Origin: Candidatus Syntrophosphaera sp.
GTDB taxonomy: Bacteria > Cloacimonadota > Cloacimonadia > Cloacimonadales > Cloacimonadaceae
Length of the DNA stretch: 53,858 nt
Direction: 5' to 3'
NCBI GenBank assembly: GCA_019429425.1
Contig: JAHYIU010000007.1
Location: 1-53,858, forward strand
Part shown: one piece after another, positions 5,855 to 18,046 of the stretch
Layout of the letters: each line of letters opens with the position of its first letter
Numbering within the stretch: the first letter of the stretch is position 1
Position numbers and translations under genes: made by a program
Notes under the pieces: model-generated
The model's input: the letters and a program-made list of their open reading frames with translations, nothing else
The model's database searches: none
Told to the model about the DNA's origin: nothing

Positions 5855-5876
5855 TCCGCGCGCAAACAGATCAATC

Positions 5877-6998
5877 TCAATCCTGAGGCGCGTTGCGGCA
5901 GACCCGGAATCCGACTCCATAGTAGATATCAGTGGCCAAGCCGCCAATATTGCGGAAAGTGACTGCGCAAAAAGATCCCTGGCCGTGAAAGCAGCTTCCC
6001 CGGTTGACGCGGCAAGTGCCGTAATCGGGGCCATGGGGATTGGTCTGATCGCTTGTTGGATAAGTGGCAAAATAAAAATCCCACACCCATTCCCAGAGGT
6101 TTCCGCTCATGTCGTGGAAACCAAGCTCGTTGGGGACTTTAAGGCCCACTATATGGGCCACGCCGCCGGAGTTTTCATTGTACCAGGCCACCAGGTCCAC
6201 GTCGTTGCTGCCGCTGTAGATAAAATTCAGGGACTGATTTCCGCCTTTTGCTGCGAACATCCATTCCATTTCCGAGGGCAGCCTGTAGCCCGGGGCGCTC
6301 CAGTTGCAGTTCAGAAAGTTTTGGTTTTGGTAGTTGGCGTTCCAGCCTGTGGGCCAGGAATCTGGATCAGCCCCGTAATTTCCGTAGCTGTAGCAGGGCG
6401 TGATCCCTTCCTGGATGCTCCGCCGGTTGCAGTATTCGATCGCGTCGAACCAGGAAACCCGATAGACAGGATAGCTGGGCCCGACCCCATAGTCGTGGGA
6501 GGGATTTTCCTTCATGATCTGCTCGTAGCCGGCCTGGGTGAGCTCATAGCGGTCTAGGTAGAAACTGGAGAGGGTGATGTTTGAGGTGCCGTTGTGAAAG
6601 GTGCCTCCCTCCACCAGGATGAAGTTCGAAGGAATGCCGGGGCTGGGTTCGTCTTCGGCGCTGACCTTGAACCGGAATTGGTCGCCGTCCAGCCTGAAGG
6701 CCTCGCCGCCGGCGTTCCAGACTATGTGTTTGCCCGTTCCGGAGGCCACATCCGGGCCAATGTCCCCGGAAAGAAGGCCAGAAGAGGGATTCAGATCGAA
6801 GCTGACTCCGCCGTTGACAGAGACCTTGAGCTCAATCTCGCATAGATCGCCATCCGCGTCCCAGAGGTCGTACCAGATGTCGACTATCCTGCTTCCGTCA
6901 AGCCTCTGCGCGGCGGTGACGTTTGATACCATGGGAGCCGTCTGGGCAAGGCAAAACCCCGCCGCGGAAATAAAGAGCAATAACAGCAATCGCTTCAT
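5877..6998 (-). CDS. secreted SUMF1/FGE-domain protein
   Basis: 373 aa. The N-terminus MKRLLLLLFISAAGFCLAQ is a signal peptide, so the protein is exported. Residues about 20-120 form a beta-rich domain (SNVTAAQRLDGSRIVDIWYD ... DQFRFKVSAED) common in front of SUMF1 domains in Cloacimonadota-like genomes. Residues about 125-370 are a formylglycine-generating-enzyme-like (SUMF1) domain: FILVEGGTFHNG, LSSFYLDRYELTQ, SWFDAIEYCNRRS, GYRLPSEMEWMFAAKGG, DMSGNLWEWVWDF and GFRVCRN. Most secreted members are binding or structural proteins rather than sulfatase activators; I see no evidence for catalysis. Its ATG overlaps the stop of the gene at 6995-7771 (ATGA), so the two are translated together. A close relative is at 36512-38110. 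Confidence 0.85.
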   Translation of the reverse strand: MKRLLLLLFISAAGFCLAQTAPMVSNVTAAQRLDGSRIVDIWYDLWDADGDLCEIELKVSVNGGVSFDLNPSSGLLSGDIGPDVASGTGKHIVWNAGGEAFRLDGDQFRFKVSAEDEPSPGIPSNFILVEGGTFHNGTSNITLSSFYLDRYELTQAGYEQIMKENPSHDYGVGPSYPVYRVSWFDAIEYCNRRSIQEGITPCYSYGNYGADPDSWPTGWNANYQNQNFLNCNWSAPGYRLPSEMEWMFAAKGGNQSLNFIYSGSNDVDLVAWYNENSGGVAHIVGLKVPNELGFHDMSGNLWEWVWDFYFATYPTSDQTNPHGPDYGTCRVNRGSCFHGQGSFCAVTFRNIGGLATDIYYGVGFRVCRNAPQD

Positions 6999-7771
6999 TT
7001 CAGACCTCCCTTGAAGACCGGAAATTCTCTCAGCAAATCCTCCAGGGTCATTTTAAGGCCCGGCTCCGCTTTGAACCAATCGAGATAGCGGGCGAGGCTG
7101 CCGTTTGGATCGACATAAGCCAGCACCTTGTAAAACATCTGGGAACGGAAGAGCAGGACCCTATAGTGGGTGTAGGCCAAGCCGGCCGTTTCGCCCAGGA
7201 AATAGTAGTACAGGTCATCATCATAGGGGGTTTCGTTATACAGGATGATGTAACCCGTTGGGGCCAGCGGGTCGCCATGCATGTCCAGGGTCACGGCCTG
7301 CCAGGTGAGGACCACGTCCACATTGTTGGATGTGTCCAGAGTTAAACCCTGAGGCGGCTGGGGCGGAACGGCGGTAATGAAGAACGGGGTCGCGGAACTG
7401 CGGATCGATGAATTGCCGAAGTTGTCAGAGATCTGGATCCGGATTTTGGCAGCATTGGATTCCACGTCGGGCACGAGCCAAGGCTCGGTCCCGTCATTGC
7501 TCGTCCCCATGGCGATGGGAACGTAGGTATCGCCGCCATCCAGGCTGTACCAGATGTTGACCGAATTGGGGCTGGGATGGGAATCATAGGCGGACCAGAG
7601 GATGGCGTTGGTATCGCCCATATACCAGTGTTCCCCTCCCACTGGCGCGATCAGGGCCAGATTGGGGTTCACTGTATCCAGCGACACATCGCCGGAAACG
7701 CCGTATCCGCTGAGCGCGGCAAGTACGGAACAGGCCGGCAGGATGATGGACATAAGCAAGGAGCGGCGCAT
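6995..7771 (-). CDS. secreted protein with Fn3-like domains
   Basis: 258 aa. A hydrophobic signal peptide starts MRRSLLMSIILPACSVLAALS. Because 'PACS' lies within the segment, a lipoprotein cannot be excluded. Residues about 35-130 contain a beta-sandwich (LIAPVGGEHWYMGDTNAILW ... IRIQISDNFGN) like the immunoglobulin-type domains of surface proteins. Residues about 140-230 (PPQGLTLDTSNNVDVVLTWQ ... GYIILYNETPY) fit fibronectin type III. The start at 7771 is chosen over the ATG four codons upstream because GGAGG lies 5 nt before it. It is coupled to the SUMF1 gene downstream. Function unknown; adhesion or envelope structure is likely. Confidence 0.75.
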   Translation of the reverse strand: MRRSLLMSIILPACSVLAALSGYGVSGDVSLDTVNPNLALIAPVGGEHWYMGDTNAILWSAYDSHPSPNSVNIWYSLDGGDTYVPIAMGTSNDGTEPWLVPDVESNAAKIRIQISDNFGNSSIRSSATPFFITAVPPQPPQGLTLDTSNNVDVVLTWQAVTLDMHGDPLAPTGYIILYNETPYDDDLYYYFLGETAGLAYTHYRVLLFRSQMFYKVLAYVDPNGSLARYLDWFKAEPGLKMTLEDLLREFPVFKGGLK

Positions 7772-8256
7772 AGCCACCTCCACGAATTATTGCATACGCG
7801 GGTATACTGGTTGCATCTTCATAATCGATAAAAAGCAGAAAGGCCTTTTATGTCAAGGAGTTTTTTAGTCAAGATATGCCACCCCCTTTTGCCGACGCTG
7901 AGATGGTTTCGGTTATACAGGGAGTCCGGAAATTCCACTTTCCCACCCATGGCTCCCCTTATCAATACGGTGTCAATACGGACTCATTACGGACAAAGTC
8001 CGTAATGAGTCCGTATTGATAGCGTAATGATAAGGAGGGCGAAGGGAAAAATGGGTTGCAGATATAGAGTATCAAGTGAAATTGCAAATAGTATCACTTT
8101 CGTTGCAAATCGCTGTTTTTGGTGAGACCCCAGTATCAAGGTCCACATCCATCCTTGAAGTGATCTGTATACTCGGTGACGTTGGGTATTTTGCCACCCC
8201 TTCATGTCGTGGATGAAAACCTAACCTACTTGATCTGCAAGAAAGCCATAATTAAC
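7772..8256. other. Gene-free stretch between the Fn3-like gene and tmRNA
   Basis: About 490 bp with no convincing gene. It carries the 89-bp palindrome (7949-8037). Short open frames here have no ribosome-binding site. From 8070 to 8145 there are loose repeats of 'AGTATCA' with 'TTGCAAAT', too degenerate to classify. Confidence 0.6.
7949..8037. repeat. 89-bp palindromic dispersed repeat, copy 1
   Basis: The sequence is a near-perfect hairpin. Two arms of about 42 bases meet at an AAA loop (around 7995-7997 on this strand). Each arm is built of three imperfect 11-bp units of the type 'ATCAATACGG / ACTCATTACGG'. The reverse complement of this block recurs at 51013-51101 with two mismatches in 89. 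No open reading frame lies inside. The form is that of a MITE or REP-like palindromic unit. Confidence 0.85.
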
Positions 8257-8284
8257 TTGACATCAGGCCCGTTTCAAATAGCTT
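8257..8284 (+). promoter_or_regulatory. Promoter of tmRNA
   Basis: TTGACA at 8257-8262 and TAGCTT at 8279-8284 are separated by 16 bp. This places transcription start about 20 bases before the mature 5' end of ssrA. A good match to a housekeeping sigma promoter at the expected place. Confidence 0.6.
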
Positions 8285-8311
8285 GTCTTATGGATCTTTA
8301 CTCAGCGCATA

Positions 8312-8663
8312 GGGGGTGACATGGTTTCGACAGGGAATCAGAGTGTGAGAGATGCATGCCGGAGATGCTGTCCTCTCCGTTATCAAGCAGCAAACAAATC
8401 TAATTGCAAACAACAATTACTCCTTAGCAGCGTAAGCTCGCTAACGTTCAACCGTCCCGCGCCGCCGGGGATGGCTTGGGCGTCGCAACAGTGCGGCCGC
8501 TCCGGGTCCGAGAGCTCATAAGATCCGGCTAAGACCATGAGCCCTGGCCCCGGCGGGTCTGATTGTCTTTTACCGCCGGGTCCGAGATCAAAGACAACTA
8601 AGCATGTAGATTCACTCATGATCGGCTCTTTGGACGCGGGTTCGATTCCCGCCACCTCCACCA
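8312..8663 (+). ncRNA. ssrA: transfer-messenger RNA (tmRNA)
   Basis: The 5' end GGGGGTGACATGGTTTCGAC pairs with the 3' end ...CACCTCCACCA, forming the alanine-tRNA-like acceptor stem with encoded CCA. The T arm GCGGGTTCGATTCCCGC is intact. A tag frame lies at 8406-8435: GCA AAC AAC AAT TAC TCC TTA GCA GCG TAA, giving ANNNYSLAA, ending in the usual LAA degron. tmRNA rescues ribosomes stalled on broken mRNAs and tags the nascent chain for proteolysis. Length (352 nt) is normal. Its 3' end is next to the start of an A+T-rich gene cluster; tmRNA genes are common landing sites for islands, but no integrase or repeated 3' end was found. Confidence 0.95.
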
Positions 8664-8816
8664 GCTTTGGCTACTGGTTTTATAGGGTAATGGGCCAATT
8701 CTGCTATTAGTTAACCCTGAATATTGCGTGTTCATTGATCATTACAGTAACCTTGCTGCTTATGGGATTGAAAAAAAGAATTGACAGATTCGAGCAGCAG
8801 AATTATAAGTCTTATT

Positions 8817-10640
8817 ATGCGAAAGATAATAACAGCAAAGAATGGTCCTTTAGTTTTCATAAACCCGAAGGAAATTACTGAATCCAGCGGGAATAAATTT
8901 TCCGTTGATAAACCTTCTGCAGCTTTTTGCCGTTGCGGACATTCAAATAGCAAACCCTTTTGTGATGGAACTCACGGGAAAATCGGCTGGACAAGCGAAA
9001 AACGAGAGGATCGACAACCTCGAAAAGTTGATGATTACAAGGGACAAAAAATCACAATACATGATGATCGTGGAATTTGCGCCCATGTTGGTTTTTGTAC
9101 TGACGGACTTCCCAAAGTATTCCGGATGGGAGTAGAACCCTGGATCGATCCTGATGCCGAGACGGTGGAAAAAATCATCGCAACCATTAAAAAATGTCCT
9201 TCAGGCGCATTGAGTTATTCGATTGACGGTGTAAAATACGACAAATTTTCCACTCAACCCGAAATAGTGGTCACGGAAAACGGGCCATATTTCATTAAAG
9301 GCAGCATTGAGCTCGAGGATGATGACCATCCAGAATCGGAAGAGCATTATGCCCTTTGCCGCTGTGGGAATTCCCAAAACAAACCATTTTGCAACGGACA
9401 ACACTGGCACAGCAAATTCCGCGATGATGGCATAGCCAAAGATGTTGGCCTGAACGAAAACGAAAAAGTGGCCGAAATACAGAAACTTGCTCAAACAGGC
9501 AAAAGCGAAAACTCATCCATGTCAACCTTGCGCGAATATCCCACTTTGGATACGCTGGTTTTTAAAGGTGCGCAATTGCATAAAATGCCGCTCAATGAAG
9601 ATATTCAAGTCAATACTAAAACCATTATCGGTAAAACAGCCAAACATCCTTTGGAATTGGATATGCCGTTTTATGTATCGCACATGTCATTTGGTGCCCT
9701 GTCGCGCGAAGCAAAAATTGCCCTGGCAAGAGGTTCATCGCTTGTTGGAACGGCAACTTGCTCCGGCGAAGGCGGTTTGCTGCCTGACGAGCGTAAAGCT
9801 GCAAAGAAATTCATTTACGAACTTGGCACTGCCTCATTCTCCCACAAAGACGATTCCATCAAGCAAGCCGACGCCGTGGAGATCAAAATCGGCCAGGGAG
9901 TAAAACCAGGTTTGGGCGGACACCTTCCCGGCAACAAAGTTACCGCTGAAATTGCCAAAATTCGCGGACTTGAAAAAGGTGAAGACAGTGTATCACCCGG
10001 ACGGTTATCGGGTGTGGAAAATTTGGACGACCTGAAAAAAATGGTAGCCCACATACGCCAGATTACAGACGGAAGACCCGTGGGCATCAAATTCGCTTCA
10101 GGCCATATTGAAGAAGATCTTGAATTCGCTCTGCAGGCCGAACCCGATTTTATTACCATTGATTGCCGCGGCGGAGCCACAGGTTCTTCACCCAAGTTCC
10201 TGAAGGACAATGTTGGCGTGCCGCCCGTGTTTGCAATTCGACGTGCCCGGAAATACCTGGATGCAAGAGGAAGTACTGTAACACTCTGTATTACGGGAGG
10301 CTTCCGCAATAGCGCTGATATTGCCAAAGCTCTCGCCCTCGGAGCAGATGCCGTTGCTCTGGCCACCGCATCTTTAATATCCATAGGCTGCATACAGGCA
10401 AGAGTTTGTCACACAGGTACCTGTCCGGCAGGGATAACCACCCAAAATGAACAACTGCGCCAACTTTTCGATCCCGAAAACGGTGTGAGAGGTTTTGTTA
10501 ATTTTTTCACTGGCGCCAATAATGAGCTGAAAGTATTTGCGCGCACCAACGGAATCAAAGATGTTCATAACTTCTGTGTAACTGATCTGCTTACCGACAG
10601 TGTTATCGTTTCGCAATTTACTGATATTCAGCATATATAA
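8817..10640 (+). CDS. CDGSH-[4Fe-4S]-CDGSH-FMN glutamate synthase-like fusion
   Basis: 607 aa from the ATG at 8817. A TTG at 8781 would add 12 residues, and neither has a strong ribosome-binding site. Order of domains: CDGSH zinc-finger-like [2Fe-2S] site (Cys38, Cys40, Cys49, His53); divergent single-cluster ferredoxin (Cys88, Cys94, Cys127 in KKCPSGALSY); second CDGSH site (Cys181, Cys183, Cys192, His196); then a complete FMN-binding glutamate synthase barrel from about residue 240 (SHMSFGALSREAKIALARGS, IKIGQGVKPGLGGHLPG, IDCRGGATGSSP). The GltS [3Fe-4S] triad is kept as C-x5-C-x4-C (CIQARVCHTGTC). There is no glutamine amidotransferase domain, so it cannot release ammonia from glutamine itself. 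It shares its N-terminal module with the next gene, 17 bp downstream. Substrate unknown; a redox role in sulfur or amino-acid chemistry is inferred from neighbours. Confidence 0.85.
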   Translation: MRKIITAKNGPLVFINPKEITESSGNKFSVDKPSAAFCRCGHSNSKPFCDGTHGKIGWTSEKREDRQPRKVDDYKGQKITIHDDRGICAHVGFCTDGLPKVFRMGVEPWIDPDAETVEKIIATIKKCPSGALSYSIDGVKYDKFSTQPEIVVTENGPYFIKGSIELEDDDHPESEEHYALCRCGNSQNKPFCNGQHWHSKFRDDGIAKDVGLNENEKVAEIQKLAQTGKSENSSMSTLREYPTLDTLVFKGAQLHKMPLNEDIQVNTKTIIGKTAKHPLELDMPFYVSHMSFGALSREAKIALARGSSLVGTATCSGEGGLLPDERKAAKKFIYELGTASFSHKDDSIKQADAVEIKIGQGVKPGLGGHLPGNKVTAEIAKIRGLEKGEDSVSPGRLSGVENLDDLKKMVAHIRQITDGRPVGIKFASGHIEEDLEFALQAEPDFITIDCRGGATGSSPKFLKDNVGVPPVFAIRRARKYLDARGSTVTLCITGGFRNSADIAKALALGADAVALATASLISIGCIQARVCHTGTCPAGITTQNEQLRQLFDPENGVRGFVNFFTGANNELKVFARTNGIKDVHNFCVTDLLTDSVIVSQFTDIQHI

Positions 10641-10657
10641 GTACCAGGAAAAGATGT

Positions 10658-13258
10658 ATGAAAGAAAATAAAGCAAGTATCAAACCTCAGAAGAACGGAC
10701 CGCTGATAGTAAAGAACCTTGATAAATTCACCAATTCAAGGAATGAAGCGATCGAGATAAAACCTATAATGGTTTTATGCCGTTGCGGAGGGTCAAAAAA
10801 TAAGCCGTTTTGTGATCAAACTCATGCCAGCATAGGTTTTTCCGACGAACGAAGCGAAACTCGTGTACCTGATAGAAAAGACACCTACAAAGGCAGAAAT
10901 ATAACTATTCACGACAACCGCGGTATATGCTCTCACGCCGGCTTCTGTACCGATAACCTTTCCAGCGTTTTCCGCATGGGCAAGGAACCATGGATTGATC
11001 CTAATGGCGCTGATGTGGAGGACATCAAGCTTGTCATTAAAATGTGCCCCTCAGGCGCGCTATCATATACGGAAAACAACCTGGAAACTAATGATTTCTC
11101 AAACGACGAGGAAATACACATCAGAAAAAACGGCCCCTATAACGTACGGGGCGGTATCGTGATCGAAAACGTAGACTTGGGCGATGGTGCTTCAAAAGAG
11201 CACTACACACTTTGTCGTTGCGGGCATTCAGGAAATAAACCCCGCTGCGATGGTACACACTGGTACGCGGCATTTAAAGACGATGAGGGTAAAACCATTT
11301 CTGCCGCTGCACGTAAAACAGAACAGCAAGCACCCGAATGGGTGAAAGTGGCTCAGACTGATGAATTAATGAACGGACAAACCAAAAAACTGAACTTACA
11401 CAATCAGCAGATACTGCTATCGCGGGTTGATGATAAATACGGTGCAATCGAGGGGATTTGTTCACATCAAGGCGGGCCGCTAATTGATGCCAGGATTGAA
11501 GCCAAGATCATTCGTTGCCCCTGGCACGGACATCCTTTTGATCCCCTGAGCGGAAAATCCTTGGGCAACGATGCCAACCTTAAAACTTACAAAACGGATG
11601 TTCGCAGTGATGGCATATACCTGGAAATAGCAGCTCCCGAAAAATCGGCCTGGACGGTAAGCCATGTTCTGGCTGAAACATTTGTTAACTGGGGTATCAA
11701 GCATGTTTTTGGTATGGTCGGGCATTCCAACCTCGGTATTGCGGAAGCTTTTCGTATTCAGGAAGAAAAAGGGAATATCAAATACATTGGGATTCGCCAC
11801 GAAGGAGCGGCAGCTTTTGCAGCGTCAGCTTATTCCAAAATTTCGGGCAAACCCGCAATCTGTTTTTCTATTGCAGGACCAGGCGCCACCAACCTGCTAA
11901 CCGGATTGTGGGATGCTCATATAGACCGCACACCTGTTCTGGCCATTACTGGACAGATTAATACTCAGTTTTTAGGCCCTGGTTCCTTTCAGGAAATTAA
12001 TTTACCGGCAGCCTTTCAAGCTGTTGCGCCGTTCAGCAAAATTGTTATGCCCGACAGCAATCACGCAGCGCTGGCTTCTTTAGCTCTTAAAAATGCCATT
12101 GTTCAACGCAATGTTTCGCATCTGATCGTTCCGGACGATGTTCAAACGCTCGATGCCGGAACCCAGGCACCGGGCGAACCTGATGGGCGGCTTTCCGATA
12201 CTTGTATCGCTCCAGCCCAGGATGCTGTGAATCTCGCCATGTACCGCATTTGGCGAACCCGAAAACCAGCTGTTATCGTTGGCTATGGAGCCAGAAATAG
12301 CATGCCGGAAATTATCGAATTTGCCGAAAAGCTCAGGGCACCCGTATTGACGACTTTCAAGGCCAAGGGGCAGATTTCCGATTCACATCCTCTTGCAGTT
12401 GGTGTATTGGGAAAAAGCGGCACACCTCTTTCCGCCCACTTTATGAATACCGCGGATTTGCTCATAGTATTTGGATCATCCTTTTCTCAACATACCGGTA
12501 TTGACCAAAGCAAGCCTATTATTCAAGTGGACAATGAACAAATGGCACTGGCAAAATTTCATGCCGTTGAGAATCCCATCTGGGGCGATGCAGGGATCAC
12601 TGCCAGATTATTCATCGAGAAATTGGCAAACTATTCACTATCAACAATATCAACCGAGCAAATTGCTGCCAGTAAAGCAGAGTGGAAAGCCAAGAAAATT
12701 GATATGGCTGCAAAGATCGGCACAAATGGGGTGAATTCAAGATTCGTCATTAATGAACTTAGCCGTTTACTGCCCGATAATGCCATCGTTGCGCTTGATG
12801 TTGGGAATAGTACTTATTCATTCGGAAGGTATTTTGAATGCAAAGGCCAGCGGGTTATCTTGTCAGGCTATCTCGGCAGCATCGGCTTCGCATTCCCCGC
12901 AGCCATGGGCGCTTATTTTGCCATGCCCGGTCGTCAAGTGGTTTCGGTTAGTGGCGATGGTGGCTTCGGTCAATACATGACCGAGTTTAACACGGCCGTT
13001 TTGTATAATATGAATATTACGCACATATTACTGAATAACAACGAATTGGGCAAAATATCAAACGAACAACGCGAGGATAAGATCCCGGTCTGGCAAACAA
13101 GATTAAACAATCCGAATTTTGCTGATTATGCCAATAATTGTGGGGGATTAGGTATCCAGGTTACAAAAAGAGCTGATTTGGATCATGCTGTTCGCAAAGC
13201 CCTGGCTTACAATGGTCCCGCGTTGGTGGAAATTATTACCGACCCGCTTCTTACTTAA
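10658..13258 (+). CDS. CDGSH-[4Fe-4S]-CDGSH-Rieske-ThDP enzyme fusion
   Basis: 866 aa; ATG preceded by AGGAAAAG. Residues 1-210 repeat the module of the upstream gene: CDGSH site (Cys41, Cys43, Cys52, His56), one-cluster ferredoxin (Cys91, Cys97, Cys130), CDGSH site (Cys186, Cys188, Cys197, His201). Residues about 225-325 are a Rieske [2Fe-2S] domain with ICSHQGG (Cys268, His270) and CPWHGHPFD (Cys287, His290). Residues about 330-866 are a full thiamine-diphosphate enzyme of the acetolactate synthase/pyruvate oxidase type: RHEGAAAFAASAY (activating Glu), SIAGPGATNLLTGLWDA, and the ThDP/Mg motif beginning at GDG766 and ending NNNEL (about 793-797). It would decarboxylate a 2-oxo acid and pass electrons to the Fe-S chain. 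No FAD-specific motif was identified. The combination is unusual; the substrate is not known. Confidence 0.85.
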   Translation: MKENKASIKPQKNGPLIVKNLDKFTNSRNEAIEIKPIMVLCRCGGSKNKPFCDQTHASIGFSDERSETRVPDRKDTYKGRNITIHDNRGICSHAGFCTDNLSSVFRMGKEPWIDPNGADVEDIKLVIKMCPSGALSYTENNLETNDFSNDEEIHIRKNGPYNVRGGIVIENVDLGDGASKEHYTLCRCGHSGNKPRCDGTHWYAAFKDDEGKTISAAARKTEQQAPEWVKVAQTDELMNGQTKKLNLHNQQILLSRVDDKYGAIEGICSHQGGPLIDARIEAKIIRCPWHGHPFDPLSGKSLGNDANLKTYKTDVRSDGIYLEIAAPEKSAWTVSHVLAETFVNWGIKHVFGMVGHSNLGIAEAFRIQEEKGNIKYIGIRHEGAAAFAASAYSKISGKPAICFSIAGPGATNLLTGLWDAHIDRTPVLAITGQINTQFLGPGSFQEINLPAAFQAVAPFSKIVMPDSNHAALASLALKNAIVQRNVSHLIVPDDVQTLDAGTQAPGEPDGRLSDTCIAPAQDAVNLAMYRIWRTRKPAVIVGYGARNSMPEIIEFAEKLRAPVLTTFKAKGQISDSHPLAVGVLGKSGTPLSAHFMNTADLLIVFGSSFSQHTGIDQSKPIIQVDNEQMALAKFHAVENPIWGDAGITARLFIEKLANYSLSTISTEQIAASKAEWKAKKIDMAAKIGTNGVNSRFVINELSRLLPDNAIVALDVGNSTYSFGRYFECKGQRVILSGYLGSIGFAFPAAMGAYFAMPGRQVVSVSGDGGFGQYMTEFNTAVLYNMNITHILLNNNELGKISNEQREDKIPVWQTRLNNPNFADYANNCGGLGIQVTKRADLDHAVRKALAYNGPALVEIITDPLLT

Positions 13259-13339
13259 TCTAGGATAGCGAATTTTAATGAATAGCATGAGAAATAATGT
13301 TCAAAGGATTATAAACTCAAATGACAAGCGAGGAAAAAG

Positions 13340-14629
13340 ATGAAAATTATATCAACCCAAGAGCTACGCTCACTAATAGAAAAGAATAACGTGAAAATAA
13401 TCGATGTGCGTCCCGTGGATGCCTACAATGGATGGCAGTTACAGAGAGAAAAACGTGGCGGACACATCAAAGGGGCAAAATCATTGTCGGACAAGTGGAC
13501 AGACTATCCGAACTGGATCGATATTGTTCGCCAAAAAAACATTTCACTTGATGATGAATTGGTGATCTACGGCTATACAAGCGAAGGAACGCAAAACGTG
13601 GCAAAAATGTTTCAAAAGTCAGGTTATAATAATATCTCTGTGTATGATTCGTTTTTATCTGAATGGGTGATGAACGAAGAATTGCCCATGGACTACCTTC
13701 CGAATTACAAAAATCTGGTTCCGGCCGAATGGGTGAAACAGCTCATTTCAGGTGCAAGGCCGCAACATTACAACAATGATAAATATATAATTGTCCATGC
13801 CCATTATCGCAACCGCGACGCCTATTTGAGCGGACATATACCCGGCGCTGTAGACATGGACACACTGGCGCTGGAAGCCCCCGAAACATGGAACCGCCGC
13901 TCCCCGGAAGAACTCAAGGCTGCCCTCGAAGCGCATGGTATCACTGCCAACACCACCGTGGTCCTATACGGAAAATTCATGTTCCCGGATAATAACGATG
14001 AATTTCCTGGCAGAGCGGCTGGCAATATCGGCGCGATCCGTTGTGCCTTGATCATGATGTATGCCGGGGTAAAAGATGTCAGGATCATCAACGGAGGATT
14101 TCAATCATGGCATGACGCAGGATATCAAGTGGATACCGATGATTTGCCGAAAAAACCGATTGCCGATTTTGGGGCAATAATTCCACAACATCCTGAATTG
14201 ATCGTGGATATTGACGAAGCCAAACTAATGCTGAAGGCCACTGATGCAGAATTGGTTTGCGTGCGCAGCTATCCCGAATACACTGGCGCGGTCAGCGGAT
14301 ATAATTATATCAAAGTTAAAGGCCATATACCAGGAGCGATATTTGCAGATTGCGGAAGCGATGCCTATCATATGCAAAACTACCGCAATGTTGACAACAC
14401 CATCCGTGAGTTTCATGAAATCGACCAAATATGGAGTAATTTAGGAGTCACTCCCGACAAACACCTGGCATTTTACTGTGGAACAGGTTGGCGGGGCAGC
14501 GAAGCCTGGTTCAATGCGTGGTTGATGGGTTGGCCCAGGATTTCCGTTTTCGATGGAGGTTGGTTTGAGTGGAGCAATGATCCTACGAATCCGATCGAAA
14601 CAGAAATACCACAGAAATATTTGCGGTAG
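13340..14629 (+). CDS. eanB: EanB-like trimethylhistidine sulfurtransferase (three rhodanese domains)
   Basis: 429 aa. Three rhodanese domains: about 1-120, 125-275 and 280-425. Only the third has an active-site cysteine: Cys380 in FYCGTGWRGSE. The equivalent loops of domains 1 (YGYTSEGTQ) and 2 (YGKFMFPDNNDE) have none. Chlorobium EanB, which converts hercynine (N-trimethylhistidine) plus polysulfide to ergothioneine without oxygen, is a multi-rhodanese protein. From memory, it uses one C-terminal cysteine (Cys412, in a CGTGWR loop) and Tyr353. At the same offset of 32 this protein has Tyr321. An EgtD-type methyltransferase gene two genes downstream (EanA) supports the call. A plain thiosulfate or 3-mercaptopyruvate sulfurtransferase is the alternative. 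ATG with GAGGAAAAAG upstream. Confidence 0.78.
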   Translation: MKIISTQELRSLIEKNNVKIIDVRPVDAYNGWQLQREKRGGHIKGAKSLSDKWTDYPNWIDIVRQKNISLDDELVIYGYTSEGTQNVAKMFQKSGYNNISVYDSFLSEWVMNEELPMDYLPNYKNLVPAEWVKQLISGARPQHYNNDKYIIVHAHYRNRDAYLSGHIPGAVDMDTLALEAPETWNRRSPEELKAALEAHGITANTTVVLYGKFMFPDNNDEFPGRAAGNIGAIRCALIMMYAGVKDVRIINGGFQSWHDAGYQVDTDDLPKKPIADFGAIIPQHPELIVDIDEAKLMLKATDAELVCVRSYPEYTGAVSGYNYIKVKGHIPGAIFADCGSDAYHMQNYRNVDNTIREFHEIDQIWSNLGVTPDKHLAFYCGTGWRGSEAWFNAWLMGWPRISVFDGGWFEWSNDPTNPIETEIPQKYLR

Positions 14630-14633
14630 ATCC

Positions 14634-16004
14634 ATGCTTAATTATGCTGCTATTATAATAGGTTCGGGACAAGCTGGCACACCGTTGGCTTTTAAATATG
14701 CCTTAAACAAAAAGAAAGTGGCTTTTATCGAAAAAAAGCATTTTGGAGGGACTTGCCTGAATGTTGGATGCACTCCAACCAAGGCATATGTGGCAAGCGC
14801 TAAAAGGGCTTTTGATATCCAGCGTGCTGAAACACTTGGCATTGGCGTACCCACAGATTCAAAAGCGAATCTCGATAAGATCAAAGCACGCAAGGACGCG
14901 CTCATCCAAAAATCGGTTAACGGGCTTGCTTCATCACTTGAAGGGAGCCAATACATTGATGTTTATAAAGGTGAAGCACGGTTTGGCGGCCCCAAGGTTG
15001 TTGAAGTGAACGGCAAATCGCTTACTGCTGAAAATATATTCATCGATGTGGGCGCAAGGGCCAGAATCCCTGAAGGTTTTGAAAATGTAGATTACCTGAC
15101 CAATGAAGATATTTTGGGACTTACGGAAATCCCTGAACATCTTTTGATCGTGGGCGGAAGTTACATAGGCCTCGAGTTTGGACAAATGTTCAGGCGTTTT
15201 GGGAGCAGAGTCACCATAATTGAAAAAAACGACCGTTTGATAGCATATGAAGATGAAGATGTTTCGGAAACCATCCAGGAGATCCTCGAGGAAGAGGGCA
15301 TCGAATTCAGGTTCAATTCTGACTGCATTGGGGCATCTCAATCCGCGCCAGGGCATATTAAGGTTAAAACGGACTGCGATGGCGCTGGGGATGAAATTTT
15401 AGGAACGCATCTTTTGCTTGCTGTAGGACGCGTACCCAATACTGATCTACTGAATCTGGAAGCTGCGGGCATCAAAACCAACGCCAGAGGCTATATAGTG
15501 GTGGATGATCGCCTGCAAACCAATATCGAAGGTGTTTACGCTTTGGGCGATTGCAACGGGAAAGGCGCGTTCACGCATACTGCCTATAATGATTATCAAA
15601 TTGTTTCAGCAAATATACTTGAAAACGGAAACCGGAAAGTGACTGACCGAATTCAAACCTACGCATTGTTTATCGACCCACCCCTGGGACGGGCAGGCAT
15701 GACCCTGGCCGCAGCCAAAATAGCCGGTAACAAGGTAAAAACAGCCGAGTATCAGATGGCAAACGTTGCCCGGGCCCGTGAAAAAGGAGAAACCAAAGGA
15801 TTTATGCGCATCATCATCGATAGTGATACCGACAGAATTCTGGGTGCTTCAATCTTGGGTGTGGGTGGAGATGAGTCGATCGCAAGCATTTTGAATGTGA
15901 TGTATGCCGATAAACCATACACGCTAATTCGTGACTCGGTGCATATCCATCCCACGGTTTCCGAGCTGATACCGACCATGCTGGAAAAAACGAAATATGA
16001 GTAA
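14634..16004 (+). CDS. FAD/NAD(P) disulfide oxidoreductase (MerA/Lpd-like)
   Basis: 456 aa from the ATG at 14634, 4 bp after the rhodanese gene; an upstream in-frame start lies inside that gene and is rejected. FAD motif GSGQAG at residues 10-15. The redox-active pair Cys41/Cys46 lies in FGGTCLNVGCTPTKAYV. The NAD(P) motif is LLIVGGSYIGLEFGQM. The second FAD motif is VYALGDCNGKGAFTHTAYND. The dimer-interface base His439-Pro-x3-Glu444 is in HIHPTVSELIP. The family includes lipoamide dehydrogenase, mercuric reductase and glutathione-type reductases; the extra metal-binding cysteines of MerA are absent at the C-terminus. Its place between EanB and EanA suggests it reduces a persulfide, polysulfide or disulfide linked to ergothioneine sulfur insertion, but this is inference. 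Confidence 0.85.
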   Translation: MLNYAAIIIGSGQAGTPLAFKYALNKKKVAFIEKKHFGGTCLNVGCTPTKAYVASAKRAFDIQRAETLGIGVPTDSKANLDKIKARKDALIQKSVNGLASSLEGSQYIDVYKGEARFGGPKVVEVNGKSLTAENIFIDVGARARIPEGFENVDYLTNEDILGLTEIPEHLLIVGGSYIGLEFGQMFRRFGSRVTIIEKNDRLIAYEDEDVSETIQEILEEEGIEFRFNSDCIGASQSAPGHIKVKTDCDGAGDEILGTHLLLAVGRVPNTDLLNLEAAGIKTNARGYIVVDDRLQTNIEGVYALGDCNGKGAFTHTAYNDYQIVSANILENGNRKVTDRIQTYALFIDPPLGRAGMTLAAAKIAGNKVKTAEYQMANVARAREKGETKGFMRIIIDSDTDRILGASILGVGGDESIASILNVMYADKPYTLIRDSVHIHPTVSELIPTMLEKTKYE

Positions 16005-16146
16005 ACCAAATTTGCTGGAACCATTTCCCGGTTTATCCTGTTTGCTGCCGATGGCTGGATGTTATGCCCTTTCCTCGCACTTTTCCTTGGTTGGAGTTCC
16101 CAAGGCGGATATCCTGATCAATGGTTTTGTATATGATGCATTGTAA
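15997..16146 (+). CDS. Possible 49-aa small protein between flavoprotein and EanA
   Basis: An ATG overlapping the end of the flavoprotein gene opens a frame of 49 codons: MSKPNLLEPFPGLSCLLPMA, then GCYALSSHFSLVGVPKADIL, then INGFVYDAL. It ends inside the 5' part of the EanA gene in another frame. Two cysteines and several hydrophobic residues are visible; I recognise no family. The tight overlap on both sides suggests a translated link in the operon. It could equally be a non-coding spacer or the decayed start of a longer protein. Confidence 0.35.
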   Translation: MSKPNLLEPFPGLSCLLPMAGCYALSSHFSLVGVPKADILINGFVYDAL

Positions 16147-17137
16147 AGAGAACCTCGAGATTTGCAGTGACCAAATAGTAATTGAAGACTACCTTCAAGA
16201 GCTTGATATAAGTACCATTAGAAATGATATTATCTTGGGATTGTCGGCACAAGACAAGCACATTTCCAGTAAATATTTCTATGATGAAAAGGGCTCTGCA
16301 TTATTTGAGAAAATAACCCTGTTACCCGAGTATTATCCAGCACATTGCGAAAAGGAGATCCTTCGAAAATTGGACATCAGCTTTATTCCCGATTTCAAGG
16401 ATTTGAACATCTGGGAGCTGGGCAGTGGAGACCATACCAAAATATCATTGATAATTGATCGTATCCCCGTGCGCCACCAAAATTCCCTAATCTATCATCC
16501 CGTTGACATCAGTAGATCAGCTATGCAGCTTGCTGCAATCAAACTGCTTGAAATATATCCGGATATCAGGATCTGCGGTATTGTCGCTGATTTTATGCAC
16601 CAGTTGGACGTAATATCTCATGGAAGTAATTGCCTTTTATGTTTTTTGGGTGGCACAATTGGCAATTTTACCTTACAAGAAAGGTCGGATTTTCTAGCTA
16701 ACATGCATCATATCATGAACGATGGCGATTTTTTTCTGCTGGGTGTCGATACCGTTAAAAGCCGGCAGGTGCTTTATGATGCTTATAACGACAAACAGGG
16801 CATAACCGCTGCTTTCAATCTCAATATTCTAAACGTTGTCAACACACTGTGCAAGACTGATTTCAACTCGGAGGATTTCGAACATATCGCTTTATTCAAT
16901 GAAGATAAAAAACGAATTGAGATGTATCTTGAAGCGCGGACTGACATTTTGGTAAAAAGCCCTTTTACACCGAACGAAATCAAGATTAGAAAAGGGGAGC
17001 GAATCCACACCGAGAATTCCCATAAATTCGATGATGAGATGATTATGCAAATGGTTGAGACCTCCGGATTTCGTGTTTCAAAGGTTTTTAGCGATGATAA
17101 CGCCTGGTTTAAAGTGATCCTATTCCACAAGGCTTGA
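16121..17137 (+). CDS. eanA: L-histidine N-alpha-methyltransferase (EgtD/EanA)
   Basis: 338 aa from the ATG at 16121; ATGs at 16133 and 16136 are also in frame. It belongs to the EgtD family, which makes hercynine from histidine with three SAM. Conserved parts: KYFYDEKGSALFEKIT, LPEYYPAHCEKEIL, the SAM loop ELGSGDHTK, FLGGTIGNFT (Asn182), DAYNDKQGITAAFN (Tyr222) and ERIHTENSHKF (Glu298, Ser300). The spacing Asn-40-Tyr-76-Glu-2-Ser is exactly that of the substrate-binding residues recalled for mycobacterial EgtD (Asn166, Tyr206, Glu282, Ser284). No EgtB (oxygen-dependent sulfoxide synthase) gene is near; the rhodanese gene upstream gives the anaerobic route. Methylation yields S-adenosylhomocysteine, which ahcY at 20819 would remove. 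Confidence 0.9.
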   Translation: MVLYMMHCKENLEICSDQIVIEDYLQELDISTIRNDIILGLSAQDKHISSKYFYDEKGSALFEKITLLPEYYPAHCEKEILRKLDISFIPDFKDLNIWELGSGDHTKISLIIDRIPVRHQNSLIYHPVDISRSAMQLAAIKLLEIYPDIRICGIVADFMHQLDVISHGSNCLLCFLGGTIGNFTLQERSDFLANMHHIMNDGDFFLLGVDTVKSRQVLYDAYNDKQGITAAFNLNILNVVNTLCKTDFNSEDFEHIALFNEDKKRIEMYLEARTDILVKSPFTPNEIKIRKGERIHTENSHKFDDEMIMQMVETSGFRVSKVFSDDNAWFKVILFHKA

Positions 17138-17162
17138 ATTATCTTAATCCGAGAGGAGGCCA

Positions 17163-17456
17163 ATGAACAGGCCCAAAGTAATTCTATATGTTTGTGCTTC
17201 AGTTGATGGGAGAATCACGTTTGGGCCCAACACCACCATGTTTGACATCTATAAACAGCCTGAGCTTTATCAAATGCTGATGAATGAGGAAGAGTGGAAC
17301 AGCTTTTCCAAGGCGGTTTTTGCCCTTCACAAGCCTGACATGTATCTTGAGGGGAGCAACATGCTTGTGGCTGAATGCGAGGAACTGAAAGAGCTGCCCA
17401 AATACGGCGGCGGCATTAATGGCCTGTATGAGGATTTTTTCCCGCTGACATTGTGA
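17163..17456 (+). CDS. RibD-type reductase, N-terminal piece
   Basis: 97 aa; GAGAGGAGG lies just before the ATG. MNRPKVILYVCASVDGRITF is the first strand and loop of the RibD C-terminal/dihydrofolate-reductase-like fold that binds NADPH and reduces pyrimidine intermediates in riboflavin synthesis. It ends at TGA where relatives, as I recall them, continue without a break, and the next frame picks up the fold at once. The GTG of that frame overlaps this stop (GTGA, 17453-17456). Either a true split gene with coupled translation or a one-base frameshift (mutation, sequencing error or programmed). Confidence 0.65.
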   Translation: MNRPKVILYVCASVDGRITFGPNTTMFDIYKQPELYQMLMNEEEWNSFSKAVFALHKPDMYLEGSNMLVAECEELKELPKYGGGINGLYEDFFPLTL

Positions 17457-17932
17457 ACCGCCCGGGAAGGAAAACATGGACGGCTGTGGTTGACGGTAGA
17501 GGCAGGTTCAGGAATGGATACACGGCGAACACCGATGATCCGGAAACTTACATGGTCCACTTGACGGCTGAAACTGCTCCACCTGAATATCTGGCATTCT
17601 TGCGTTCCAGAAACATACCCTATCTTGTGGCAGGAAAAGGAAGGGTGGATCTTTCTGCAATGTTGCGCAAGGTAAAGGAAAAACTCAGGGTGGAAACAAT
17701 CGTGACCAGCTCCGGTGGGCGTTTGAGCGGAGCTCTGATCAGGAGTTCCCTTTTGGACGAGGTTAACATTCTTCTCAGCCCAATTGTCATTGGCGGTTTT
17801 TCCACTCCAACCCTCTTTTCCTCCCCGGATCTTAGCTGGCCATCGATCATGCCAAACAAACTCGCCCTCATGGAAACCAAAACATTGATGAATGACAAGG
17901 TTTGGCTAAGGTACAAGGTGGTCTATGATTAA
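17453..17932 (+). CDS. RibD-type reductase, C-terminal piece
   Basis: 159 aa starting at a GTG. It continues the fold: GRKTWTAVVDGRGRFRNGYT, PEYLAFLRSRNIPYLVAG, TIVTSSGGRLSGALIRSSLL, DEVNILLSPIVIGGFSTPTL. The pattern TSSGGxLxGALxxxxLxDE is that of RibD_C reductases (5-amino-6-ribosylamino-uracil reductase type). Together with the 97-aa piece the length (about 256 aa) matches a single-domain reductase. A deaminase domain and other riboflavin genes are absent, so the substrate is open. It is the last gene of the A+T-rich cluster; rpsO follows after about 115 bp. Confidence 0.7.
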   Translation: MNRPGRKTWTAVVDGRGRFRNGYTANTDDPETYMVHLTAETAPPEYLAFLRSRNIPYLVAGKGRVDLSAMLRKVKEKLRVETIVTSSGGRLSGALIRSSLLDEVNILLSPIVIGGFSTPTLFSSPDLSWPSIMPNKLALMETKTLMNDKVWLRYKVVYD

Positions 17933-18046
17933 GAAAGGGCAACCACCTTGCTTGAAGCTTATCCGAATTGGCGGGGCTGAGCAGAAAATGCTTTACAAAT
18001 AACCCTGTCCCAAAATGCTGGGTACAAAATTCATCTGGAGGATGAA

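Follow-up and report, generated by a model that had tools for sequence, protein, structure and literature searches.

A stretch of 53,858 nucleotides from Candidatus Syntrophosphaera sp. (assembly GCA_019429425.1, contig JAHYIU010000007.1; the whole stretch is hereafter called the window) carries two adjacent genes whose products bear homologous N-terminal iron-sulfur (Fe-S) modules in front of two different enzymes. The downstream gene (10658..13258, forward strand) encodes an 866-amino-acid protein in which a thiamine diphosphate (ThDP) enzyme is preceded by CDGSH, ferredoxin-type (Fer4_19) and Rieske domains, and the gene directly upstream of it (8781..10640, forward strand) encodes a 619-amino-acid glutamate-synthase-like (GltS-like) protein. 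The best explanation of this arrangement, to which we give an even chance, is that the ThDP protein is a 2-oxo-acid dehydrogenase sending its electrons through Fe-S clusters to the GltS-like reductase. We consider this partner a more interesting feature than the fusion itself.

The 866-amino-acid protein is encoded by an uninterrupted open reading frame (ORF) with no internal stop, and all its domains were found with Pfam above the gathering scores: two zf-CDGSH (8e-28), Fer4_19 (2.5e-22), Rieske (2e-15) and TPP_enzyme_N, M and C (3e-32, 2e-27 and 4e-34, respectively). Two CDGSH sites, a ferredoxin-type domain, a Rieske domain and a complete ThDP enzyme are therefore present in one chain, as a preliminary description of this DNA had stated. 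The two CDGSH sites, recognized by Pfam and by their ligand pattern, are CRCGGSKNKPFCDQTH at residues 41-56 (10778..10825) and CRCGHSGNKPRCDGTH at residues 186-201 (11213..11260), all coordinates within this gene being on the forward strand. Between them lies the Fer4_19 domain (residues 77-139, 10886..11074), in which Pfam and alignment identified only three conserved cysteines, C91, C97 and C130, so that its cluster could be [3Fe-4S], or [4Fe-4S] with a non-cysteine ligand. The same approach located the Rieske domain (residues 227-305, 11336..11572), with the ligands C268, H270, C287 and H290 in the order C-x-H...C-x2-H, and the PYR domain of the ThDP enzyme (residues 333-448, 11654..12001), with the catalytic glutamate E382 and F444-Q445. 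They are followed by a middle domain of the FAD/ADP-binding type (FAD, flavin adenine dinucleotide; residues 527-649, 12236..12604) and by the PP domain (residues 714-859, 12797..13234), which contains the Mg/ThDP positions D767 and N794 as well as K799 and E803. The four Rieske ligands are unchanged in all 96 relatives aligned, and so are E382, F444, Q445, D767, K799 and E803, while N794 is N in 89 of them and D in the other 7.

An identical five-domain chain (CDGSH-Fer4_19-CDGSH-Rieske-ThDP) was found in 10 further genomes, with 52-78% identity, and this recurrence rules out a one-off fusion or an assembly error; the fusion is a true, intact, conserved and unusual enzyme. A scan of genome contigs revealed Rieske-ThDP proteins, each with both parts, at no fewer than 80 loci (50-78% identity), and five additional loci came from haloarchaeal and Mycobacteroides plasmids. 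The family is present in Bacteroidota, Myxococcota, Pseudomonadota, Acidobacteriota, Cyanobacteriota and haloarchaea, among others. The rarity first attributed to the fusion thus belongs only to the full CDGSH-ferredoxin-CDGSH arm, a minority form (11/96). In a tree of the 96 proteins, these 11 cluster with six double-CDGSH proteins and one protein bearing a membrane anchor (18 rows, support 91), and the proteins outside this cluster start at the Rieske domain. No Rieske-ThDP protein was found in any of the 59 relatives of the window's genome examined.

By sequence, pyruvate oxidase (PoxB, 2.7e-72) is the closest match to the ThDP part, not acetolactate synthase, with which that part had first been compared. 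Its NCBIfam scores were 404 bits for pyruvate oxidase (NF006377, cut-off 742) and 277 bits for acetolactate synthase (TIGR00118, cut-off 538), both of them below the cut-off, and the difference rules out an acetolactate synthase orthologue. The AlphaFold2 model (36 sequences, pLDDT 85.5, pTM 0.78) is a monomer, whereas the ThDP site lies at a dimer interface. Its best fold match was Escherichia coli pyruvate oxidase 3eya (Z 41.9, root-mean-square deviation 2.5, 514 residues aligned), with HKA synthase 8xod tied (Z 41.3) and Corynebacterium glutamicum pyruvate:quinone oxidoreductase 9ev6 nearly equal (Z 40.4). In the alignment the chain ends at about the equivalent of PoxB residue 530, before the C-terminal membrane/quinone segment of PoxB. 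An enzyme without FAD had been proposed. However, its nearest relatives are FAD-dependent pyruvate oxidases, and G585, F609 and D625, aligned with PoxB G252, F276 and D292, are the same in 96/96 proteins. Since the latter residues are presumably FAD contacts of PoxB (UniProt P07003), FAD is likely to be bound by the middle domain. The invariant K799 occupies the position of PoxB F465 and may set the choice of substrate or acceptor. PoxB F465 is the residue that moves into the active site upon activation.

The partner protein consists of a CDGSH-Fer4_19-CDGSH arm followed by a glutamate-synthase-like flavin mononucleotide (FMN)/[3Fe-4S] enzyme. Its annotated start codon is TTG, and there is an in-frame ATG at 8817. 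Pfam identified Glu_synthase (5.8e-97), two zf-CDGSH (7.8e-30) and Fer4_19 (1.7e-22), and found neither the amidotransferase nor the GXGXG domain in the 619 residues. The cysteines C537-x5-C543-x4-C548 align with the [3Fe-4S] pattern of glutamate synthase, and the SGEGG and QGxKxGxGG loops are conserved in the partner family; the score of the protein against the glutamate synthase model is 147 bits, the cut-off being 1047.

Both the neighbourhood of the genes and their distribution evidenced that the two proteins form a conserved pair. Of the loci examined, 40 have a glutamate-synthase-like gene together with the ThDP gene, on the same strand in 35 and within 1.5 kb in 33. In a fixed set of 395 Bacteroidota genomes, of which 48 carry a Rieske-GltS partner, it is present in 10 of the 11 with the ThDP protein, 1.3 being expected (Fisher p=2.9e-9). 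Partners of armless ThDP proteins begin with a Rieske domain of their own (C-x-H...C-x2-H). Where an arm or an anchor extends the ThDP protein at its N-terminus, the adjacent partner bears a homologous module in 5/5 pairs: 104 of 196 aligned residues are identical between the full arms of the window and 50/101 between those of locus L008, 53/93 and 66/87 between the double-CDGSH modules of L018 and L023, and 22/48 between the membrane anchors common to the pair of L019. All five alignment scores exceeded every one of 200 shuffles, and the matching (5/5 vs 0/32) gave a Fisher p of ~2e-6, related loci not being independent. In the tree of partners, the full-arm forms share a deep lineage with the anchor form, and the Rieske forms share a separate one with the double-CDGSH forms, so the matching arose at least twice. 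Two further genomes have a matched partner in trans, that of L009 (full arm, partner 73% identical) and that of L021 (double CDGSH). The preliminary description had proposed a single-chain oxidoreductase and did not mention the neighbouring ORF bearing the same arm. The protein is instead one half of a pair. The proposed passage of electrons from ThDP through the clusters stays plausible in view of the universally conserved Rieske ligands and the intact ThDP active site, once its single-chain and FAD-free parts are set aside.

According to the mechanism that we propose, the 866-amino-acid protein would be a ThDP-dependent, and probably also FAD-dependent, 2-oxo-acid dehydrogenase of the pyruvate-oxidase/PoxB branch, in which the N-terminal Rieske cluster would be the electron exit in place of the C-terminal quinone/membrane segment of PoxB. 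Electrons of the decarboxylated ThDP adduct would reach the Rieske cluster, by way of any FAD that is present, and from there the [3Fe-4S] cluster and FMN of the partner, either directly or through the CDGSH-ferredoxin-CDGSH arm. The partner would spend them on a reductive reaction, the simplest being the reductive amination of 2-oxoglutarate or of a related 2-oxo or imino acid, so that the reductase would draw its reducing power from a 2-oxo acid, in place of NAD(P)H or free ferredoxin. A path running downhill from pyruvate to glutamate is feasible, since ThDP adducts are strong reductants once decarboxylated, the potentials of Rieske and CDGSH clusters are moderate, and 2-iminoglutarate can be reduced at about -0.12 V. 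In the window both proteins bear the full arm and are encoded in one operon with the anaerobic ergothioneine synthase EanB, a disulfide reductase and the methyltransferase EgtD/EanA. In view of this co-transcription, the pair would serve there a thiol-redox/ergothioneine module. The complete proposal, namely a new kind of two-protein system with a ThDP 2-oxo-acid dehydrogenase wired directly by Rieske and CDGSH clusters to a GltS-type reductase, in which the oxidation of one 2-oxo acid drives a reductive amination or another reduction and neither NAD(P)H nor free ferredoxin is needed, with Fe-S modules swapped in parallel on the two proteins and feeding the ergothioneine pathway in some anaerobes, is somewhat more doubtful than its core, and we rate it a little below an even chance.

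Several observations weigh against this proposal. The GltS partner was not found in 7 of the 11 full-arm genomes (L010-L013 and L015-L017, draft metagenome-assembled genomes, MAGs), and two other draft MAGs (L014 and L032) carry a partner of the Rieske type, not of the arm type. Conversely, L096 and L098 have a GltS partner beside EanB, the ThDP protein being found in neither genome, and the partner can therefore work in its absence. The partner family has GGHLPG where glutamate synthase has GGQLPG. We take the Gln of this motif to be a 2-oxoglutarate contact of glutamate synthase, and with His in its place a different imino or oxo substrate is possible; the Lys and Arg of the 2-oxoglutarate site are retained. 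Co-occurrence of EanB and the ThDP protein in Bacteroidota was not above chance (1 seen, 0.5 expected). Finally, the presence of the clusters and of FAD, the direction of the electrons, both substrates and the contribution to ergothioneine are points that we infer.

Some of these data are also those expected if the electrons of the 2-oxo acid oxidised by the ThDP protein go to an acceptor of general use (quinone, O2, a cytochrome or ferredoxin), as those of PoxB do, and the GltS-like enzyme is independent and fed by the same acceptor, with the arms docking both proteins to the carrier. Many arm-bearing genomes have no GltS partner, and 38 of the 48 Bacteroidota genomes with the partner have no ThDP protein. 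The common membrane anchor of the L019 pair, and the Rieske-ferric-reductase-like membrane proteins and FMN reductases among the recurrent neighbours, agree with it as well. So does the genome of L017, whose ThDP protein has the full arm and in which we observed a stand-alone CDGSH-Fer4_19-CDGSH protein of ~250 amino acids (L149). However, no one carrier gene recurs in most loci, and a direct partnership explains more simply both the 10/11 co-occurrence and the matched modules. A general acceptor is thus the strongest competitor of the direct transfer that we prefer, at roughly half its probability.

The remaining genes of the window operon are related to ergothioneine and thiols. EanB (13340..14629, forward strand, 429 amino acids, three rhodanese domains; E=9e-205 to the EanB structures 6ktv/6h98) keeps all three mechanistic residues, its Y321, C380 and R385 corresponding to Tyr353, Cys412 and Arg417 of Chlorobium limicola EanB, whose mechanism and roles have been described (PMC10903977). 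It is followed on the same strand by an FAD disulfide oxidoreductase with the redox motif GGTCLNVGC (14634..16004; NF004992 633.9 bits, cut-off 629) and by the histidine N-alpha-methyltransferase EgtD/EanA (16121..17137; TIGR03438 333.7 bits, cut-off 290.9; 4pim 1.7e-54). One could propose that the module works with EanB in making or recycling a persulfide, polysulfide or ergothioneine disulfide, and that the substrate of the ThDP enzyme bears sulfur (for example mercaptopyruvate or sulfopyruvate). The disulfide reductase of the operon agrees with this, and EanB adjoins the ThDP gene in the window, L008, L010, L041 and L077, while L096 and L098 have it beside the GltS partner. Besides, EgtD-like genes are near the ThDP gene in L009, L046 and L080, sulfite exporter, DsrE and MerA genes are near the haloarchaeal copies, and in L008 (6626-8858) the genes of a betaine-type ATP-binding cassette (ABC) transporter, a permease-OpuAC fusion and an ATPase, lie directly after EanA. 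This transporter, in our estimation, resembles the ergothioneine importer EgtUV. Nevertheless, ergothioneine or sulfur genes are out of reach at most loci, and elsewhere in the window's order EanB sits with other genes instead: in L088 and L089 (genomes G040 and G041) EanB-EanA is accompanied by SufS, SufE and an FMN-reductase-like protein, and the Fe-S-armed pair is absent. Furthermore, EanB with polysulfide requires no external electrons in the published scheme (PMC10903977). For these reasons we regard a sulfur-bearing substrate as improbable.

The ergothioneine link of the ThDP protein is real but optional, because EanB and the ThDP protein co-occur in Bacteroidota no more often than by chance. 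A genome-wide link was rejected for this phylum, and the association is one of physical adjacency in five loci. EanB and the GltS partner were found together in 5/18 (p=0.054), which is suggestive at most. The possibility of selenocysteine in EanB relatives, raised by matches at TGA codons, was also rejected, since two of these codons are the stops at the ends of the genes and a third stands in place of a Trp codon in the draft MAG of L041.

Least probable of all, by a small step, is a non-oxidative carboligase of the acetolactate-synthase or HKA-synthase type, in which the Fe-S domains would serve as regulatory or structural redox sensors. Despite the nearly equal fold scores of both synthases (Z 38-41), the sequence of the ThDP part favours pyruvate oxidase, the invariant cluster ligands and the conserved redox partner exceed the needs of a sensor, and the window operon showed no regulatory subunit.

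The neighbours of the Rieske-ThDP loci are varied. The recurrent ones include Na+/H+ antiporters (8), FMN reductases (3) and malic enzymes (3), and the last, being pyruvate-producing, were counted in favour of the proposed electron transfer from a 2-oxo acid. Four neighbours of the Rieske-ThDP gene encode a membrane Ferric_reduct domain fused to a Rieske domain (for instance L053:3761-4819). In addition, a DUF5996 protein or a relative of it (~275 amino acids) is encoded with the Rieske-GltS gene, the Rieske-ThDP gene or both in 14 loci: L096 (7151-7978), L098 (2927-3751), L077 (9069-9878), L022, L024, L028, L040, L046, L063, L069, L080, L087, L112 and L119. This protein is likely to be a third component. 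The window's RibD_C ORF (17453-17932) was also compared with the dihydrofolate-reductase genes that lie next to GltS partners in haloarchaea, and homology was rejected, as tblastn gave no match at 1e-3. The Rieske-ThDP family is widespread yet, as far as our literature searches showed, apparently unstudied; none of the literature searched dealt with a fusion of Rieske and ThDP domains, with DUF5996 or with a combination of EanB and CDGSH proteins. In riboflavin catabolism, Rieske and ThDP enzymes are separate proteins (PMC12746152).

The window operon was laterally acquired on an island at ssrA, the gene of the transfer-messenger RNA, which ARAGORN located at 8312..8663 (forward strand) and which marks the left edge of the insertion. 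The island (8663-18025) lies between ssrA and pnp, and within it (~8.7 to 18 kb) the G+C content falls from 0.57 to 0.45. In the congener G005 (L155) the match to window position 18025 onwards starts ~670 bp past ssrA, as compared with ~9.4 kb in the window. A classical attachment (att) repeat or an integrase at the island was considered and rejected: neither was seen within the window, and the ssrA match of 35 bases in congener G002 lies at the end of a contig. On the other side of ssrA, ~2.4 kb (5858-8311) with an FGE-sulfatase-domain gene (5877-6998) and an ORF of 262 amino acids (6995-7783) are absent in the congeners, whose upstream match stops ~250 bp from ssrA.

When two unrelated enzymes exchange their N-terminal modules in parallel, as here, their sequences offer a clear clue to electron-transfer partners, and EanB-type ergothioneine operons gain two unexplained companions. 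Should the proposal be right, dedicated Fe-S wiring could let a 2-oxo acid drive chemistry of the glutamate-synthase type. To our knowledge, a 2-oxo acid has not been described as the source of reductant for the glutamate-synthase class.

Comparison with known systems places the 866-amino-acid protein beside the pyruvate oxidases (E. coli PoxB, C. glutamicum PQO and Lactiplantibacillus plantarum POX), with which it shares the three-domain ThDP fold, the catalytic Glu, FQE, GDG...N and the FAD-type middle domain. Unlike PoxB, it adds the N-terminal Rieske domain and the arms, lacks the C-terminal membrane/quinone segment and has K799 for F465. The partner resembles the ferredoxin and NADPH types of glutamate synthase in its Glu_synthase FMN domain, its C-x5-C-x4-C pattern and its SGEGG and QGxKxGxGG loops, and differs from them in lacking the amidotransferase and GXGXG domains, in its N-terminal Fe-S modules and in GGHLPG. 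As in the EanA/EanB system of C. limicola, the window operon combines a methyltransferase of the EgtD type with an EanB in which the three mechanistic residues are all kept. Unlike that system, it is preceded by two Fe-S-armed enzymes and includes a disulfide reductase, and neither Fe-S-armed genes nor such a reductase were described with EanB in the literature searched. Finally, the arm is the same as that of the stand-alone protein L149, but in the window it has been fused twice, to two different enzymes.

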